Below, piece by piece: positions 8,692 through 14,076 of a DNA stretch of 15,444 nucleotides (position 1 is its first letter; the number at the start of each line of letters is the position of its first letter). The DNA is from Candidatus Bathyarchaeota archaeon (GTDB lineage: Archaea > Thermoproteota > Bathyarchaeia > EX4484-135 > B24-G1): NCBI GenBank assembly GCA_003662535.1, contig QMYG01000003.1, positions 1 through 15,444 of the forward strand, in the 5' to 3' direction. Position numbers and translations under genes: made by a program. The notes beneath the pieces were generated by a model, which was not told the origin of the DNA, did not search any database, and worked only from the letters and a program-made list of their open reading frames with translations.

Positions 8692-9234
8692 ATGGGTTTT
8701 AGGTATGAGGCTTTCAACCCCTATCGTAGGCGTTTGGGGGTTTTGTCCAGCCTCATTCAGGCCTTTTTGCTGACGCTCATTTATGCGGCTGTGGGCCTCT
8801 CCTCAAACGCTCTCATGAGGATTGGGGTTATTTACCTGCCTTTAGCTGTGCTCAGCTTCTATCTGGACGCAATATATGCGCAAATCCCGCTTGTGAGGGC
8901 TATTAGGCCTTATACCTTCAAGGTTACGTTGGCTTGGTCTCCGCTTTTCGCCTTGTCCAAGATGTTTAGTGATTCGCTCTACTATTCTTGGACTGGGGAG
9001 ATTCCGCTGAACGCCTACTTGGAGATGGTTCCCTACCAGCTTCCCGGCCTGCTCTTCCTCGGAGCCTTCTATGGGATGTGCTTCTACATAACCTACGTCT
9101 ACCTCTATAAGCTCTACGCCTACTTCGAGGCTAAGAGGGCTGAACGCAGAAGGGAGATACTCCTACGCTACTACGGGAGAAAGACTGAAAAAGCCAAGAA
9201 GAGCCCCAAGCATGAGGATAAACACCAGAGATAA
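8692..9234 (+). CDS. Membrane protein of unknown function, about four helices with a basic tail
   Basis: I do not recognise this 180-residue protein. Hydrophobic segments are at about residues 15-36, 42-65, 76-95 and 115-139. The C-terminal 40 residues are strongly basic and charged (EAKRAERRREILLRYYGRK followed by a Lys-rich end), so the tail is probably cytoplasmic. The general layout of short helices with a basic end resembles small integral membrane components of transport systems, but no specific family motif is visible. A GGTG site (8680-8683) precedes the ATG. Its last 23 bases overlap the start of the V4R-domain gene in another frame, implying coupled translation and possibly shared function. 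Confidence 0.7.
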   Translation: MGFRYEAFNPYRRRLGVLSSLIQAFLLTLIYAAVGLSSNALMRIGVIYLPLAVLSFYLDAIYAQIPLVRAIRPYTFKVTLAWSPLFALSKMFSDSLYYSWTGEIPLNAYLEMVPYQLPGLLFLGAFYGMCFYITYVYLYKLYAYFEAKRAERRREILLRYYGRKTEKAKKSPKHEDKHQR

Positions 9235-9787
9235 GACGGGATTACCGTTGAAGAAAGGACTGAAAGTCGGGGAAATCGCCGAGAAAATCCGTATAGACGG
9301 TGAAGGTAGACTCTTTGTAGACGGAATTCCGGCGCTCATACTTACAAGGAGTTTTTTGGCGCTCATTCAGCAAACGATGGAGGAGCTTATTGGGGAGCGT
9401 GGAGCAGCCCTCATCTTCTACCGTGCAGGCTTCAGAGGAGGCTACAACTTAGCGAAGAGCCTGAAAGCCTACGGATTAAAGCCGCCAGCCATACTTCAGG
9501 CCTGCCTACACACAGCCTCCCTCAGGGGATGGGGCGTGTTCGGCGTGGCGGAGCTAGACCTGAAGAAGCCAAAGGTAGACGTAGTAGTTAGAGCGTCCCC
9601 AGCAGAGGAGATGAAAGGCAGAAACAAGCCTGCCTGCCACCTAATCTGCGGATTCATCGCAGGAATAATGCAGTATTTGGCTGAAATGTGCGGAAAAAAC
9701 GTAAAAATAAGGGGAACTGAGAAAAAGTGCATCGCAAAGGGAGACCAGTACTGCGAGATAGTCGCCGAACCCCCTCACGCCAGCTAA
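9212..9787 (+). CDS. V4R-domain protein
   Basis: This is a 191-residue soluble protein. The C-terminal half is a V4R (4-vinyl-reductase) domain, a small-molecule-binding fold found in bacteriochlorophyll 4-vinyl reductase, in phenol-type activators and in many archaeal proteins. Supporting features are GERGAALIFYRAGFRGG (61-77), HLICGFIAGIMQYL (143-156) and the ending with cysteines C173 and C181 in TEKKCIAKGDQYCEIVAE. Cysteines C142, C146, C160, C173 and C181 could bind metal or act in redox sensing. The chosen ATG overlaps the previous gene by 23 bases and has no strong ribosome-binding site, so translation is probably coupled. A TTG at 9248 is an alternative. The stop overlaps the convergent end of the last FtsZ-like gene by four bases. 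A ligand-sensing or regulatory role is an inference. Confidence 0.8.
   Translation: MRINTRDKTGLPLKKGLKVGEIAEKIRIDGEGRLFVDGIPALILTRSFLALIQQTMEELIGERGAALIFYRAGFRGGYNLAKSLKAYGLKPPAILQACLHTASLRGWGVFGVAELDLKKPKVDVVVRASPAEEMKGRNKPACHLICGFIAGIMQYLAEMCGKNVKIRGTEKKCIAKGDQYCEIVAEPPHAS
9694..9726 (-). terminator. Probable oligo-T terminators of the FtsZ operon inside the V4R gene
   Basis: The minus strand has three oligo-T tracts of five or six bases (9726-9722, 9707-9703, 9699-9694), about 58-90 bases past the last FtsZ-like stop. There is no intergenic space, so the operon most likely terminates here, antisense to the V4R coding end. Confidence 0.35.
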
Positions 9788-10749
9788 AATATCTTCTCAG
9801 TCGTCCCTATGAGGCTCGTTATCGTCGGGGACGTGACGTTCGAGGCTGCAAGCATCACAGTAGGGCGTTCCAGGCCCTCCTCCATCCTCAGACCCCAAAA
9901 CACCCTCCCGATGCGGTACTGCTCCGTCAGAGTTCTCGCGGCCTCGCTCGCCTCCTGCAGCGTAACGGTTGGCGGCGCAGTTATGTACATTAGGGCTCCT
10001 TCAGCCGTTTCTAGGTCTGCGTCTATGAGCTTGTTTTTCACGGCGTTGTCTAGGGCTTCTTTCACCCTTCTTCCTACGCCGTGCCCGACCATGCCTAGGT
10101 TCATGTCCTTCACTAGGGAGTGGAAGTCTGCGAAGCTTATGCTGACGACAGCTGGCTTCGTGATTATGTCTATGAGGCCTTTCAGCGTGTTCACGAGGAT
10201 GCTGTCCATGAACTTGAAGGCGTATTGAACCTGTATGTCGCCTATCTTCTTCAGCAGTAGGTCGTTCATGTTCACTATTGTGAGGTCTGAGCGGTCTATT
10301 ATCGCCCTGAGCCCCATCCTAGCGTTCTCCATGCGGTTCACGCCCTCAAAGGTAAAGGGGATGGTAACTAGGCAGATTCTCAGGGCGTCTGTAAACCTCG
10401 CCCTCACCTCCTCTAACAGCCTCGGAATTCCGCCTGAGGCGGTCCCCCCGCCAAGCCCTCCGGTTATGATGACCACGTTCGGGGAGCCCATAGCCGCTAT
10501 GACCTCGTCTACGTTCTCGCTCATCGCCATCTGACCCTTCATCAGGTTCCCGCCGCTCCCCCTGCCCTCCGTCGTCGTCCTCCCTATCAGTATGCTGGCT
10601 GAAGCCTTCACGGTCTTTAGGTGGACCGCCTCCGTGTGAACTGCTATGGTTGGGACGTCTACCCCAACCTCGTAGAGCCTGTTCAGCGTGTTGCACCCGC
10701 ATCCGCCCACGCCGACGACGACTATTCCGGGCTCGACGTCCTCGCTCAT
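9784..10749 (-). CDS. FtsZ-family GTPase paralog A' (altered T4 and T7 loops)
   Basis: This is a 321-residue protein with the whole FtsZ core fold. The T1 loop is GVGGCGCNT (13-21), the T3 loop is GRGSGGN (62-68), the T5 region is VTIPFTFEG, the H7 region is NDLLLKKIGDIQVQYAFKFMD, and the closing strands are VFWGLRMEEGLERP. The tubulin/FtsZ signature reads GGGTASG (100-106), with Ala where Gly is normal. The T7 catalytic loop reads SISFAD (203-208): the Asn and first Asp of NxDxxD are Ser, and only D208 remains. It is therefore unlikely to be a normal self-activating FtsZ. It ends at the core, with no linker or SepF/FtsA-binding tail. The closest relative here is the A gene at 13025. The ATG abuts the B' stop directly, with GAGGGG five bases upstream of the start region. 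It is the last gene of the operon. Confidence 0.88.
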   Translation of the reverse strand: MSEDVEPGIVVVGVGGCGCNTLNRLYEVGVDVPTIAVHTEAVHLKTVKASASILIGRTTTEGRGSGGNLMKGQMAMSENVDEVIAAMGSPNVVIITGGLGGGTASGGIPRLLEEVRARFTDALRICLVTIPFTFEGVNRMENARMGLRAIIDRSDLTIVNMNDLLLKKIGDIQVQYAFKFMDSILVNTLKGLIDIITKPAVVSISFADFHSLVKDMNLGMVGHGVGRRVKEALDNAVKNKLIDADLETAEGALMYITAPPTVTLQEASEAARTLTEQYRIGRVFWGLRMEEGLERPTVMLAASNVTSPTITSLIGTTEKIF

Positions 10750-11754
10750 CTAGGCCCCCCTCAGGTAGTTGTCTACCAGCTTCGAGCGAATCCCCGAAGT
10801 TATCAGGGTAACCTTCGGTAGGTGGAGCGTCCAGTCTGGGCGGACTCCGAAGTATATTGTCGTTATGCCGTAGCGCTCCTTCAGTATTCTCGGTATCTCC
10901 TCGACGCCTCCGGTGCTCAGCACAGCCTTCCTCGCCTCAATCAGGGTTACAGCCCCCTGAGCGTTCGTGATGTCCGCCTCTACGTAGTTCTCCTGAAGCG
11001 AGTTCTCGAAGGCCGTAAGCGTGTCCCTGCCCTCTCCGACGCCGACGAAGCCAAGCCCGGAATCCCTAGTTACACGCTCAATGTTCGAGAAGTCTATGCT
11101 GATTAGGCCCGGAACAGGCTCAGCCCCCTGAAGCCTGATAAGCCCGGTGATTGCGTTCGTTAGGACTTGGTCCATGCGTTTAAATGCCTGAATTATCGAT
11201 GCTTGTCTCGCCTTTGCCTTTAGGACGTCGTTGCTGTGGACTATTGTCATGTCGGAGAGTTCCAGCACTTCCTTTAGTGCTGTGCGTGCGTTTTCCGCTC
11301 TTTCGCTCCCCTCTGATTCGAAGGGTAGTGTTACCATGCTCCAGACGAGCTTGTCTTTCATGTTTTCGTCCATGTATTCTAGGAGTGCCGCTATTCCCCC
11401 GCTTCCTGTTCCGCCTCCTAGCCCAGCTGTTACTATTACGAGTTCCACGTCTTCCAGCAGGTTCGCCACTTTTCCAACCTCATCCGTCATCACTTTTCTC
11501 CCCAGCGGCAGAAGTCCTCCCGAGCCTCTGCCCCGTGTTGTGGCTTCTCCTACGAGTATCTTGTGTTTCGCCTTCGTTTTGTGTAGTGAGACTGCGTCCA
11601 TGTCTACGGCGATTGTTGGGACTTCAACCCCAGCCAGCTCTAGGTTCGTGATCGTGTTGCATCCGCACCCGCCTATGCCGACCACGGCCATCCTTATGGC
11701 CGCCCGCTTGCTCATAACCTCCCTTAAGTATGCGTCCTCCGAGTGGGCTGTCAT
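10750..11754 (-). CDS. FtsZ-family GTPase paralog B' (canonical signature, T7 Asp to Asn)
   Basis: This is a 334-residue FtsZ core. Its T1 loop is GIGGCGCNT (26-34), its T3 loop is GRGSGG (75-80), and its signature GGGTGSG (113-119) is canonical, so GTP binding is expected. The T7 loop is SIDFSN (219-224): the first catalytic Asp (D221) is kept and the second is Asn. Other core landmarks are VTLPFESEG, SNDVLKAKA, GLGFVGVGEGR and YFGVRPDW. It most resembles the B gene at 12012 (shared DFSN, GVGEGR, FGxRPxW). It ends LVDNYLRGA, without a long tail. The start at 11754 has GGTGA six bases upstream. The later in-frame ATG (codon 14) has GGAGGT too close to it, at one base. One base separates it from the small-protein stop. 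Confidence 0.88.
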   Translation of the reverse strand: MTAHSEDAYLREVMSKRAAIRMAVVGIGGCGCNTITNLELAGVEVPTIAVDMDAVSLHKTKAKHKILVGEATTRGRGSGGLLPLGRKVMTDEVGKVANLLEDVELVIVTAGLGGGTGSGGIAALLEYMDENMKDKLVWSMVTLPFESEGSERAENARTALKEVLELSDMTIVHSNDVLKAKARQASIIQAFKRMDQVLTNAITGLIRLQGAEPVPGLISIDFSNIERVTRDSGLGFVGVGEGRDTLTAFENSLQENYVEADITNAQGAVTLIEARKAVLSTGGVEEIPRILKERYGITTIYFGVRPDWTLHLPKVTLITSGIRSKLVDNYLRGA

Positions 11755-11755
11755 C

Positions 11756-12010
11756 CTACTTCACCCCCCTCTTACTTACCCTAGCCTCGACGGCCTTCAG
11801 CAGTTCGGCCTCAATCGTTTTCCTGTCGTAGTTAGAGTTGTAGCCCTTCTCAGCCATCCAGTCCATGAACTTAACGACAGGCGGGATGTAGGGCATCTTC
11901 TCCATCTCTAGGTGCCAAGCTAAGTCTACCTCCCCCGAGTTTTCGTCTAGGAACTGGTTTACGAGCTCCTCGAGCGGAGGGTTCTCTTTCTTTCTCAGGA
12001 GGAACGCCAT
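11756..12010 (-). CDS. 84-residue protein of unknown function inside the FtsZ operon
   Basis: I do not recognise this protein. It begins MAFLLRKKENPPLEELVNQF. A middle part rich in Asp, Glu, Met and Pro (EVDLAWHLEMEKMPYIPPVV) comes next, and a probable helix with a basic end (KTIEAELLKAVEARVSKR) finishes it. It has no membrane segment and no cysteines. The ATG at 12010 has GGAGGTG six bases upstream, formed by the last codons of the B gene, and one base separates it from that stop. A GTG at 12019 would add three residues and overlap B, but it lies in the ribosome-binding site. Its position exactly between the two B-type FtsZ genes, with tight spacing on both sides, suggests a partner, regulator or membrane adaptor of the polymers. 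That role is inferred only from context. Confidence 0.75.
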   Translation of the reverse strand: MAFLLRKKENPPLEELVNQFLDENSGEVDLAWHLEMEKMPYIPPVVKFMDWMAEKGYNSNYDRKTIEAELLKAVEARVSKRGVK

Positions 12011-12011
12011 T

Positions 12012-13019
12012 TTAGACACCTCCTCCCAAGAATTCCTCGACGTAGCCGCTTTTTACTCCGCAGGCAATCACCGAGGCCCTTACCTCTGCCAGTTCCCATG
12101 TTGGCCTTATGCCGAAGAACACGGTGGATGTGCCGAAGTTGTTCGTTATGTAGTTTATCGTGCTCCTTATCTGCCCCATATCGAGGTAGATTTCCTTCCC
12201 CTCGTAGAAGAGTAGCACTCCGTGGGCTGTGGAGAGGTCTGTCTCTGCGTAGTCGTCTCTTAACGCCCTGTTGAAGGCGTCGTAGATTCTCCTACCCTCG
12301 CCGACTCCAGCGAAGGAGATGCGTGCGTTTCGCATTATGCGCTTCACGTTCGAGAAGTCTACGTTTATTATGCCTGGCCCGACCTCGGGGGACTGAAGCC
12401 TCACCAGTGCCTCAACGACCCTCGCTATCTTCCTGTCCATCACCTTGAAAGCGTAGGGCAGGGTTATCCCGCCCATCTTTTCAGCCAGCACGTCGTTCGC
12501 ATTCGGTATTATCGTGTCCGAGCATTCTAGGAGCTCCTGCAGACCCATCTGTGCATTCTTTACCCTTTCCTCACCCTCCTCCCTGAACGGAAGCGTTACA
12601 ACTGCGATTCTGAGCGCCTCCTTCCTCCTCAGTGCCAGCTCTCTGAACAGCACTGGTAGGCCGCCTGTTCCCGTTCCCCCTCCCAGCCCAGCGATTCCGA
12701 TTACAGCGTCTACGTCCTTATCTATGGCTGCTAAGGCATCTTCTATGCTGTTCTCCATGGCTTTGGCGCCGACATCCGGGACTCCGTGTGCTCCCCTCGG
12801 TATTTCCGTCAGCCCGCTAAGGAGGACCTTCTTGTCTGCTGACGTTCTCCTTAGGACTGGGGCGTCTGTGTTCATTGCGATTAGCTTGGCTGGCAGCTTC
12901 AGCTTGTAGAGGTTGTTTATTGCGTTGTTCCCGCATCCGCCTACGCCGACGATGTTTATTTTTACAGCCGCCATGCGCTCCCTTTCAGCCAGTACGCTCT
13001 CGTCTCCAACAATTCCCAT
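12012..13019 (-). CDS. FtsZ-family GTPase paralog B (canonical signature, T7 Asp to Asn)
   Basis: This 335-residue FtsZ core has the T1 loop GVGGCGNNA (25-33), the T2 region MNTDAPVL (49-56) and the canonical signature GGGTGTG (113-119). The T3 loop is unusual: PRGAHGVPDVG replaces the GxGxGGN pattern. The T7 loop is NVDFSN (219-224), keeping the Asn and first Asp of NxDxxD, with the second Asp changed to Asn. VTLPFREEG, NANDVLAEKMG and FFGIRPTW complete the fold. It ends YVEEFLGGGV, without a tail. Of the four it looks nearest to ordinary FtsZ in T4 and T7. The ATG has GGAGGTGA nine bases upstream, built from the final Gly-Gly-Glu codons of the A gene, with five bases between the genes, so translation is likely coupled. 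Confidence 0.9.
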   Translation of the reverse strand: MGIVGDESVLAERERMAAVKINIVGVGGCGNNAINNLYKLKLPAKLIAMNTDAPVLRRTSADKKVLLSGLTEIPRGAHGVPDVGAKAMENSIEDALAAIDKDVDAVIGIAGLGGGTGTGGLPVLFRELALRRKEALRIAVVTLPFREEGEERVKNAQMGLQELLECSDTIIPNANDVLAEKMGGITLPYAFKVMDRKIARVVEALVRLQSPEVGPGIINVDFSNVKRIMRNARISFAGVGEGRRIYDAFNRALRDDYAETDLSTAHGVLLFYEGKEIYLDMGQIRSTINYITNNFGTSTVFFGIRPTWELAEVRASVIACGVKSGYVEEFLGGGV

Positions 13020-13024
13020 CTTTC

Positions 13025-14011
13025 CTACTCACCTCCTATTTCTTTGAGAGTTTCATCAATTGTTTGTGAGCTAACCCCACTCGCAACAACCATTACGTGA
13101 GTGCGCTTAACATCTGGGGCTACCTTCAAGCCCCAAGTAACCTTATCAACACCATAAATCTCGTTAAGCACTCTGGGGGCTTCGCTCGCCTCCTTCAGGT
13201 TCGCACCTAGAGGTGCCTTCACGAACACGAGGGCGCCCCTCGCCGTCGAGAGGTCTGCGTCGAGGAGGCACTGCTCTATCGCCCTCTCCGTAGCTTTCCT
13301 CGCACTGGCCTGTATGCCGTATCCGAGCAGGTTCACGCCGCTCCTCTTCACAACAGAAGTGAAGTCGGAGAAGTCGGTCCTAATCACCGAGTTGGTTGGG
13401 TCCAGCATGTCCGCTAGGCCCGACAAGCCGTAGACGAGCATGCTGTCCATGATTTTCATGGCGTCTTGAACCGGTAGGTCTCCGTACCTCTTCAGGAGCA
13501 GGTCATTTAGGTTCACTATTACGAAGTCCGTGGCGTCTAGGAGCTCCCTTAGGGCGATTTGAGCGTTTTTTATCCTCTCCGCACCCTCGTATTTGAAGGG
13601 CATTGTAACGACTGCTCCTATCAGTTTGTCTGGGTGTTTCTCCCTGAAGGCTGACAGTATGTAGGGCATGGCTCCTGAGCCTACTCCCCCGCCTAGGCCT
13701 GCTGCGGCTACTAGGAGGTCTGGCTCCCCAATGGCGTCTAGCACCTTGTCTACGTCCTTTTCTGCGACCTTCCTACCTAGGCCTATGTCTCCCCCCGTCC
13801 CCCTACCCTTTGTTAGGAATTCCCCGATGTGCACCACTGCGTCAGCCTTAGCGATTGATAGTACGCTTGCGTCTGTGTCTACCGCTATGAGGCGTATGGC
13901 GCTCTTCCCGTAGAGGTTGCTGGTTGTGTTGCATCCACAGCCTCCGAAGCCGACTATGGCCATCTTTACGATGGGTTTTTCAGGCCTTCTTATCGGGTAG
14001 GAGAAAGACAT
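13025..14011 (-). CDS. FtsZ-family GTPase paralog A (altered T4 signature)
   Basis: This is the first gene of the operon. It encodes a 328-residue FtsZ core with the T1 loop GFGGCGCNT (21-29), the T2 region VDTDASVL (44-51) and the T3 loop GRGTGGD (69-75). The T5 region is VVTMPFKYEG, followed by NAQIALRELLDATDFVIV, NDLLLKRYGDLPVQDAMKIMD and the closing strands TWGLKVAPD. The signature is GGGVGSG (107-113), with Val in place of the conserved Thr that contacts GTP phosphates. The T7 loop is RTDFSD (211-216), with both catalytic Asp present but Arg replacing the Asn. It ends TLKEIGGE, without a linker or tail. AAGGAGGG lies about 12 bases before the ATG at 14011, which is somewhat far. The TATA box at 14063-14076 is well placed. 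The closest relative here is A' at 9784. Confidence 0.9.
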   Translation of the reverse strand: MSFSYPIRRPEKPIVKMAIVGFGGCGCNTTSNLYGKSAIRLIAVDTDASVLSIAKADAVVHIGEFLTKGRGTGGDIGLGRKVAEKDVDKVLDAIGEPDLLVAAAGLGGGVGSGAMPYILSAFREKHPDKLIGAVVTMPFKYEGAERIKNAQIALRELLDATDFVIVNLNDLLLKRYGDLPVQDAMKIMDSMLVYGLSGLADMLDPTNSVIRTDFSDFTSVVKRSGVNLLGYGIQASARKATERAIEQCLLDADLSTARGALVFVKAPLGANLKEASEAPRVLNEIYGVDKVTWGLKVAPDVKRTHVMVVASGVSSQTIDETLKEIGGE

Positions 14012-14062
14012 TTCCCGTTCTTTCCCTCCTTGATATATTCTTCGATAATATTTTGAAAACTG

Positions 14063-14076
14063 CCATATATAAACAT
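14063..14076 (-). promoter_or_regulatory. TATA-type promoter of the FtsZ operon
   Basis: The minus strand reads ATGTTTATATATGG, an excellent archaeal TATA box. It lies about 52 bases upstream of the first ATG, giving a transcript start near 14041-14045 and a leader of about 30 bases with AAGGAGGG. No other convincing promoter is seen within the operon, so the five genes are probably one transcript. Confidence 0.6.

Follow-up and report, generated by a model that had tools for sequence, protein, structure and literature searches.

The stretch analysed here (hereafter the window, 15,444 nt) is the entire contig C3 of a metagenome-assembled genome (MAG) labelled Candidatus Bathyarchaeota (G000; 721,938 bases, 58.5% complete). 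On its minus strand lies a single tight operon of four intact genes for FtsZ-fold proteins of 321–335 amino acids (aa), here called ZA, ZB, ZC and ZD, and one gene for a protein of 84 aa. In transcription order these are ZA (13025–14011, 328 aa), ZB (12012–13019, 335 aa), the small gene (11756–12010), ZC (10750–11754, 334 aa) and ZD (9784–10749, 321 aa), separated by 5, 1, 1 and 0 bp. Open reading frames (ORFs), Pfam hits and gaps thus agree with the claim of a first-pass annotation that four complete FtsZ-fold genes stand back to back, 0–5 bases apart. The ORF list starts the small frame at a GTG at 12019; the ATG at 12010 gives the 84 aa used here. By eye, a TATA-like promoter element (TTTATATATGG, minus strand, 14063–14073) and a Shine-Dalgarno-like stretch (AAGGAGGG, minus strand, 14024–14031) precede ZA, and the three other loci described below likewise have AT-rich TATA-like stretches ahead of ZA. 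Before every downstream start, a G-rich Shine-Dalgarno-like stretch overlaps the preceding gene.

All four Z proteins exceed the Pfam Tubulin cut-off (104.8–112.6 bits; cut-off 33), which places them in the FtsZ/tubulin superfamily, and ZA and ZD also pass that of FtsZ_C. However, their scores against the NCBIfam ftsZ equivalog (171.0–207.2 bits) lie below its cut-off of 295.2, so that none qualifies as canonical FtsZ. Identity to ZA is 33% for ZB, 35% for ZC and 41% for ZD. The predicted model of ZB is a complete FtsZ fold (pLDDT 88.8), with a TM score of 0.85 and 35–36% identity to Methanocaldococcus jannaschii FtsZ. The T1 and T4 loops are mostly conserved across the Z proteins, the T4 loop of ZD reading GGGTASG in 18 of 19 rows. 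After the core, the Z proteins carry C-terminal tails of only 9–16 aa (0 in the truncated ZC row of genome G335), against 21–177 in canonical FtsZ; scored on tail length, ZA–ZD thus lack the linker and C-terminal peptide of canonical FtsZ. No consistent amphipathic signal was seen in their N-terminal extensions. The small protein is predicted to be all-helical, with four helices (pLDDT 78.9; prediction from five sequences); it had no tubulin match in the Pfam scan, no match to the SepF Pfam domain at E ≤ 1 (searched minus the first Met) and none to any PHROG family. Accordingly, the ‘five-gene tubulin-superfamily module’ of the first-pass annotation stands for four of its genes and falls for the small one.

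The T7 catalytic loop separates the Z proteins into groups. Residues were numbered as in Escherichia coli FtsZ and tallied over 51 Z and 21 canonical rows. D209 and D212 are present in all 21 canonical rows, 20 of which carry the complete N-x-D-x-x-D set. ZA keeps both Asp in all nine rows, with Asn207 replaced by R or H in each (RTDFSDF in the window; alpha-like). ZB keeps D209 in 15/15 rows and D212 in two, the other 13 having N. D209 is likewise kept in all six ZC rows and in both rows of ZX, a fifth type met in another genome, and D212 in none of either group. The window's ZB (NVDFSNV) and ZC (SIDFSNI) both have N at the D212 position (beta-like). ZD is the reverse: D209 is absent from all 19 rows (S in 14, G in five) and D212 present in all of them (SISFADF in the window, with S at D209). 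Loss of D209 is confined to ZD, being found in 0 of the other 32 Z rows and 0 of the 21 canonical rows. Some of the tallied rows are near-duplicates; a recount with one row per 95% cluster gives the same pattern (D212 kept in ZA 6/6, ZD 14/14, ZB 2/14, ZC 0/6 and ZX 0/2). None of the four window proteins carries the full canonical N/D/D set, ZA having both Asp without the Asn. Among non-Z rows including divergent ones (n = 32), D209 is universal; at position 212, 29 rows have D, two have E and one has S. A divergent FtsZ of the Thermoplasmata archaeon SubAcS15-31 (L111), outside the Z clade, has S at the T7 catalytic position.

These states follow the phylogeny. In the main tree (54 rows: 29 Z and 25 canonical, the latter not split into FtsZ1 and FtsZ2; unrooted, without CetZ), the Z clade is separated from canonical FtsZ with support of 100/99, as it is in an 83-row quick tree (98). 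Within it, ZA (100/99), ZB (100/100), ZD (100/100), ZX (100/100) and ZC (90/83) form distinct groups, and the deepest split sets ZB + ZC + ZX (100/100) against a weaker ZA + ZD (91/78). Presence or absence of D212 follows this deepest split, and parsimony over 72 scored rows requires one change at D209 and two at D212. In the 83-row tree, a non-operon sequence on a very long branch (L023, from G005) falls inside the Z clade beside the divergent ZC of G451 and G335, apart from the other ZC; this join may be false. From these sequences, ZA–ZD are anciently diverged paralogues, not recent copies. Between two copies in genome G551, dN/dS is approximately 0.15 for ZC and 0.13 for ZX, at high dS (1.4 and 3.2). 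Since the group-specific T7 states have long been kept and the GTP-binding loops are largely conserved, we argue for selected roles rather than decay.

The order ZA–ZB–small–ZC–ZD recurs in three other archaeal MAGs, the four genomes spanning three classes, and each of the four loci has a small gene between ZB and ZC. The check on related genomes that the first-pass annotation had proposed thus points to a real, conserved and dedicated multi-FtsZ module, and its caveat of recent copies limited to this genome is contradicted by copies that are both ancient and present elsewhere. In Thermoprotei archaeon B15_G2 (locus L034; G551, which equals G256, with the same contigs), ZC and ZD are separated by a PRC-barrel gene and the fifth FtsZ, ZX, and ZD runs off the contig; best BLAST identities to the window are 52% (ZA), 65% (ZB), 43% (small), 59% (ZC) and 67% (a 61-aa piece of ZD). 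The locus of G451 (L170; genome 98% complete) gives 50, 58, 43, 34 and 61% for the same genes. That of G335 (L171; 90% complete) gives 37% for ZA, 38% for ZB and 43% for ZD; its third FtsZ is short (264 aa) and matches ZX (33%) better than ZC (27%). The 78-aa gene of this locus was assigned by position (23% in the alignment, no BLAST match). G551 has a second cluster, ZC–ZX–start of ZD, on contig C50, with the remainder of a ZD on C29. Both its FtsZ clusters (C6, C50, C29) end inside ZD at identical sequence; a stretch common to two ZD genes may have halted assembly.

The operon family is rare, being found in 4/398 genomes of the phylum at E ≤ 1e-70, the window's own included. The class of G551 yields 2/81 genomes at 1e-68 (G551 and G451), and that of G335 2/12 at 1e-10, one of these (G311) solely through an FtsZ that groups with the canonical rows. 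In the class of G000, the model finds matches in 144/256 genomes at E ≤ 0.001, the best outside G000 scoring 218 bits against 265–562 for its four proteins. In this class, G201, G203, G232 and relatives have three to five FtsZ matches each, some partial, on different contigs. The nearest relatives of G000, G001 (85% complete) and G002 (75%), gave no FtsZ-family match. Protein-database searches with ZB and with ZA/ZD scored 8000 candidates and listed the best 120 each. Among the listed matches, 13 clusters close to ZB precede a fall in score from 220 to 167 bits (they include a fragment and P0014, which groups with ZC), and 21 close to ZA/ZD precede one from 370 to 250 bits (five ZA and 16 ZD, near-copies of the window included). 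The small protein has three clusters in the database, one identical to that of the window.

Around the operon, the window encodes an aminotransferase (Pfam), an Nramp-type transporter (NCBIfam) and, by eye, PEP synthase and IlvD. A V4R/DUF5943-type protein on the opposite strand (9212–9787) overlaps the 3′ end of ZD by 4 bp with its own 3′ end. No neighbour outside the operon was seen to be common to the loci among the portions inspected by eye. Near the G551 operon, on the opposite strand, lies a gene for a small Roadblock/MAPKK1-interacting-like protein (L034:6701–7117; Pfam matches below cut-off).

With regard to the bin, the tetranucleotide fit of C3 to G000 is 0.776, and 12 of the 15 other contigs above 9 kb stand at 0.73–0.78 in a check that sampled 20 further contigs out of 121. 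The contigs C5, C10 and C12 (L287, L292, L294) are composition outliers (0.20–0.36 versus approx. 0.76) and may be contaminants. In G451, G551 and G335, the operon contigs lie within the range of ten contigs sampled per genome. An argument against a native contig comes from the PEP synthase of the window: its closest matches are in two genomes of the G551 class (77 and 75%), G005, of the same class as G000, follows (74%), and among the 68 genomes searched the match in the same-order G001 and G002 reaches only 34–35%. Horizontal transfer or a wrong bin label of C3 may explain this; the reality of the operon is unaffected by the label, because it recurs in other genomes.

Division genes were also sought. 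Contig C34 of G000 (L300, 122–3567) carries a cdv-type operon with CdvA, two ESCRT-III-like genes and a Vps4-type AAA ATPase with an MIT domain. CdvA scores above its Pfam cut-off and has a weak PRC-barrel match as well, and the ESCRT-III-like genes match Snf7 at E = 3e-5 and 1.6e-4, under the curated cut-off. Of the division genes that the first-pass annotation had suggested looking for, the Cdv set is therefore present; SepF and any FtsZ-family (PF00091) match beyond the four operon genes were not found in this 58.5%-complete bin. Among 16 genomes searched, eight have SepF matches (two in G335), and G000, G001, G002, G451 and G551 have none. Snf7 was matched in five of ten genomes, including weakly in G335 beside the operon; none was found in G451 or G551 with this weak model, which scored its Sulfolobus acidocaldarius control only below cut-off. 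G335 has one extra FtsZ (on its contig C12), grouping with the canonical rows. Outside the operon pieces of G551, a sole 980-aa open frame (C32:2523–2753) has a partial Tubulin match, and is perhaps FtsZl1-like. With a cdv operon in the host bin, and neither SepF nor a further FtsZ detected there, a role of the Z operon outside ordinary division is more likely in the window's organism. The earlier claim of a system ‘separate from ordinary division’ thus agrees with the distinct phylogeny and with the cdv operon of the same bin, the role itself being only the more likely one. Against it, the PF00091 matches of the 98%-complete G451 are the four operon genes only, and the operon may serve division in G451-like hosts.

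Taken together, these features lead us to lean towards a dedicated heteromeric FtsZ-type cytoskeleton, in which four anciently diverged subunits and a small helical partner would be produced from one operon. Mixed filaments are proposed because the T7 pattern matches the logic of alpha/beta-tubulin: ZA–ZD would co-assemble head to tail like FtsZ and tubulin, each GTPase site being completed by the T7 loop of the adjoining subunit. Contacts receiving T7 from ZA, and perhaps from ZD, would hydrolyse GTP; those receiving it from ZB or ZC would not. This would amount to the alpha/beta-tubulin arrangement, arrived at independently inside the FtsZ lineage. The genes stand in the order alpha-like, beta-like, small, beta-like, alpha-like, which points to two pairs, and the small protein could cross-link or recruit the filament. 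With their short tails, and N-termini that are not consistently amphipathic, the Z proteins would contact a membrane, if at all, through a partner, for which the small four-helix protein is the candidate. No membrane tie figures among the features found, and a purely cytosolic filament is as likely as a membrane-linked one. Thereby, of the ‘dedicated cytoskeletal or membrane-remodelling machine’ announced by the first-pass annotation, the dedicated module is retained, and the membrane-remodelling part, given the short tails and the lack of a consistent amphipathic signal, is no better backed than a cytosolic filament. In the window's organism the filament would most likely have a part in shape, in internal organisation or in remodelling membranes, and not in ordinary cytokinesis.

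Alternatively, the operon could carry out cytokinesis in its hosts by way of a four-subunit Z ring, in place of FtsZ1/FtsZ2–SepF and with the small protein as membrane anchor. G451 would fit, as it has these four FtsZ-family matches only, no SepF and no Snf7 match (the weak model makes the latter silence say little), and so would the PRC-barrel gene in the G551 operon, a domain known from haloarchaeal division proteins and CdvA (PMC10936438). We nevertheless consider this unlikely, given the cdv operon of the window's bin, the canonical-grouping FtsZ, two SepF matches and weak Snf7 match of G335, the short tails without consistent amphipathic anchor, and the rarity of the family, which implies that most relatives divide otherwise. 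Somewhat less probable again are four paralogues acting separately, some hydrolysing and others slow, that have only their operon in common, for instance as a dynamic ring with stable scaffolds. Such a division of labour has precedents in Haloferax, where FtsZ1 and FtsZ2 differ in task (scaffold versus constriction; PMC12186497), and in plants, where the filaments of FtsZ1 and FtsZ2 turn over differently (PMC8142252). Yet the fixed order with near-zero gaps or overlaps in four loci, and the common deep split, favour stoichiometric partners.

A TubZ/PhuZ-like system for segregation or internal organisation, brought in by a mobile element and now chromosomal, would account for the patchy distribution across classes and for the lack of FtsZ-family matches in G001 and G002. 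It seems very improbable, since the neighbours are metabolic (those of the window and, by eye, pyruvate kinase in G551 and aspartokinase in G451) and the composition of the operon contig fits the bin in 4/4 genomes. Moreover, PHROG matches are weak (best 1.5e-4, PhuZ 3e-4, both for ZA), the 73 putatively viral IMG/VR contigs with FtsZ-like proteins from a viral scan (L198–L270) reach only 25–39% identity to ZB, and the 109 records from a plasmid search with ZA are all below 60%, the best listed at approximately 35%. Recent duplication, a binning error or an assembly artefact might be suspected from the low completeness of the MAG, its three composition outliers among 20 sampled contigs and the PEP synthase affinities. 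In view of the tree, the synteny and the composition of C3 inside the bin range, we hold this to be scarcely credible. The risk named by the first-pass annotation, a cluster produced from one or two genes by faulty assembly, is rejected, as identical or orthologous proteins come from other contigs in the databases and three other genomes have the same gene order.

If the heteromeric cytoskeleton is accepted, a more tentative proposal, which on balance we rather doubt, can be drawn by analogy: the alpha/beta-tubulin arrangement may have been reached independently within the FtsZ lineage and extended to four (or five) obligate subunits, with only some contacts hydrolysing, as a cytoskeleton in archaea that divide otherwise. 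The change from a one-subunit to an obligate multi-subunit polymer is central to how microtubules arose, and the Z operon may represent a second, separate lineage of that change, in which four partners are fixed in an operon and the sequences show the catalytic split. If true, some Thermoproteota keep an FtsZ-derived cytoskeleton beside their Cdv division machinery. No description of a four-FtsZ operon was found in the literature searched.

Alpha/beta-tubulin, BtubAB and Asgard AtubAB follow a similar logic, as their paralogues differ at the T7 catalytic position like the Z proteins, BtubAB being also encoded in an operon; for this comparison we take D212 of FtsZ to be equivalent to tubulin position 254 (E254 of alpha). 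Asgard AtubAB is encoded in an operon too, and K254 of beta-tubulin blocks hydrolysis of the GTP of alpha, whose own E254 is catalytic (PMC13394414); D212A in E. coli FtsZ leaves 7% of GTPase activity (PMC8142252). The Z proteins differ from tubulins in being FtsZ-like in sequence and length, and in numbering four or five subunits instead of two. In a structure-database sequence search (ZA and ZB queries only), the best FtsZ structure reached 166 bits for ZB and 155 for ZA, and BtubB only 13 bits for ZB. CetZ resembles the Z proteins as a set of archaeal superfamily paralogues with a possible non-division role but is more distant than FtsZ: 3zid, 4b45 and 4b46, which we take to be CetZ structures (the table names them FtsZ-type), scored 38–44 bits with ZB and 34–46 with ZA. 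On these bit scores (3zid: 44 for ZB, 46 for ZA), a closer kinship to CetZ or tubulin than to FtsZ is rejected for ZA and ZB.

Plant chloroplast FtsZ1 and FtsZ2 are not known to share an operon and comprise two types, not four. They are thought to coassemble, and only one has a C-terminal peptide (PMC8142252). Among FtsZ-like proteins proposed for membrane remodelling, FtsZl1, which has gene partners, mostly bears a long coiled coil and a further domain, and FtsZl2 an extra C-terminal region of approximately 300 aa (PMC2875224); the Z proteins are bare FtsZ cores, and at 321–335 aa they cannot be identified with the long coiled-coil FtsZl1. A divergent FtsZ clade of Culexarchaeia, in TACK archaea, clusters with sequences of Thermoplasmata, Bathyarchaeia and unclassified Thermoproteia; it is described as an FtsZ homologue, with no mention of a paralogue operon (PMC9723716). 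FtsZ1 and FtsZ2 stem from an ancient duplication, and divergent FtsZ also occurs in Crenarchaeota (PMC9871819); an odinarchaeal dual FtsZ has one member tethered by a terminal amphipathic helix (PMC12583498). With archaeal FtsZ1/FtsZ2, which act with SepF and the PRC-barrel CdpB proteins, the Z proteins share the fold and the GTP-binding loops, whereas they stand outside the canonical clade, with shorter tails, an altered T7 loop, no SepF match in three of four genomes and four members per operon.

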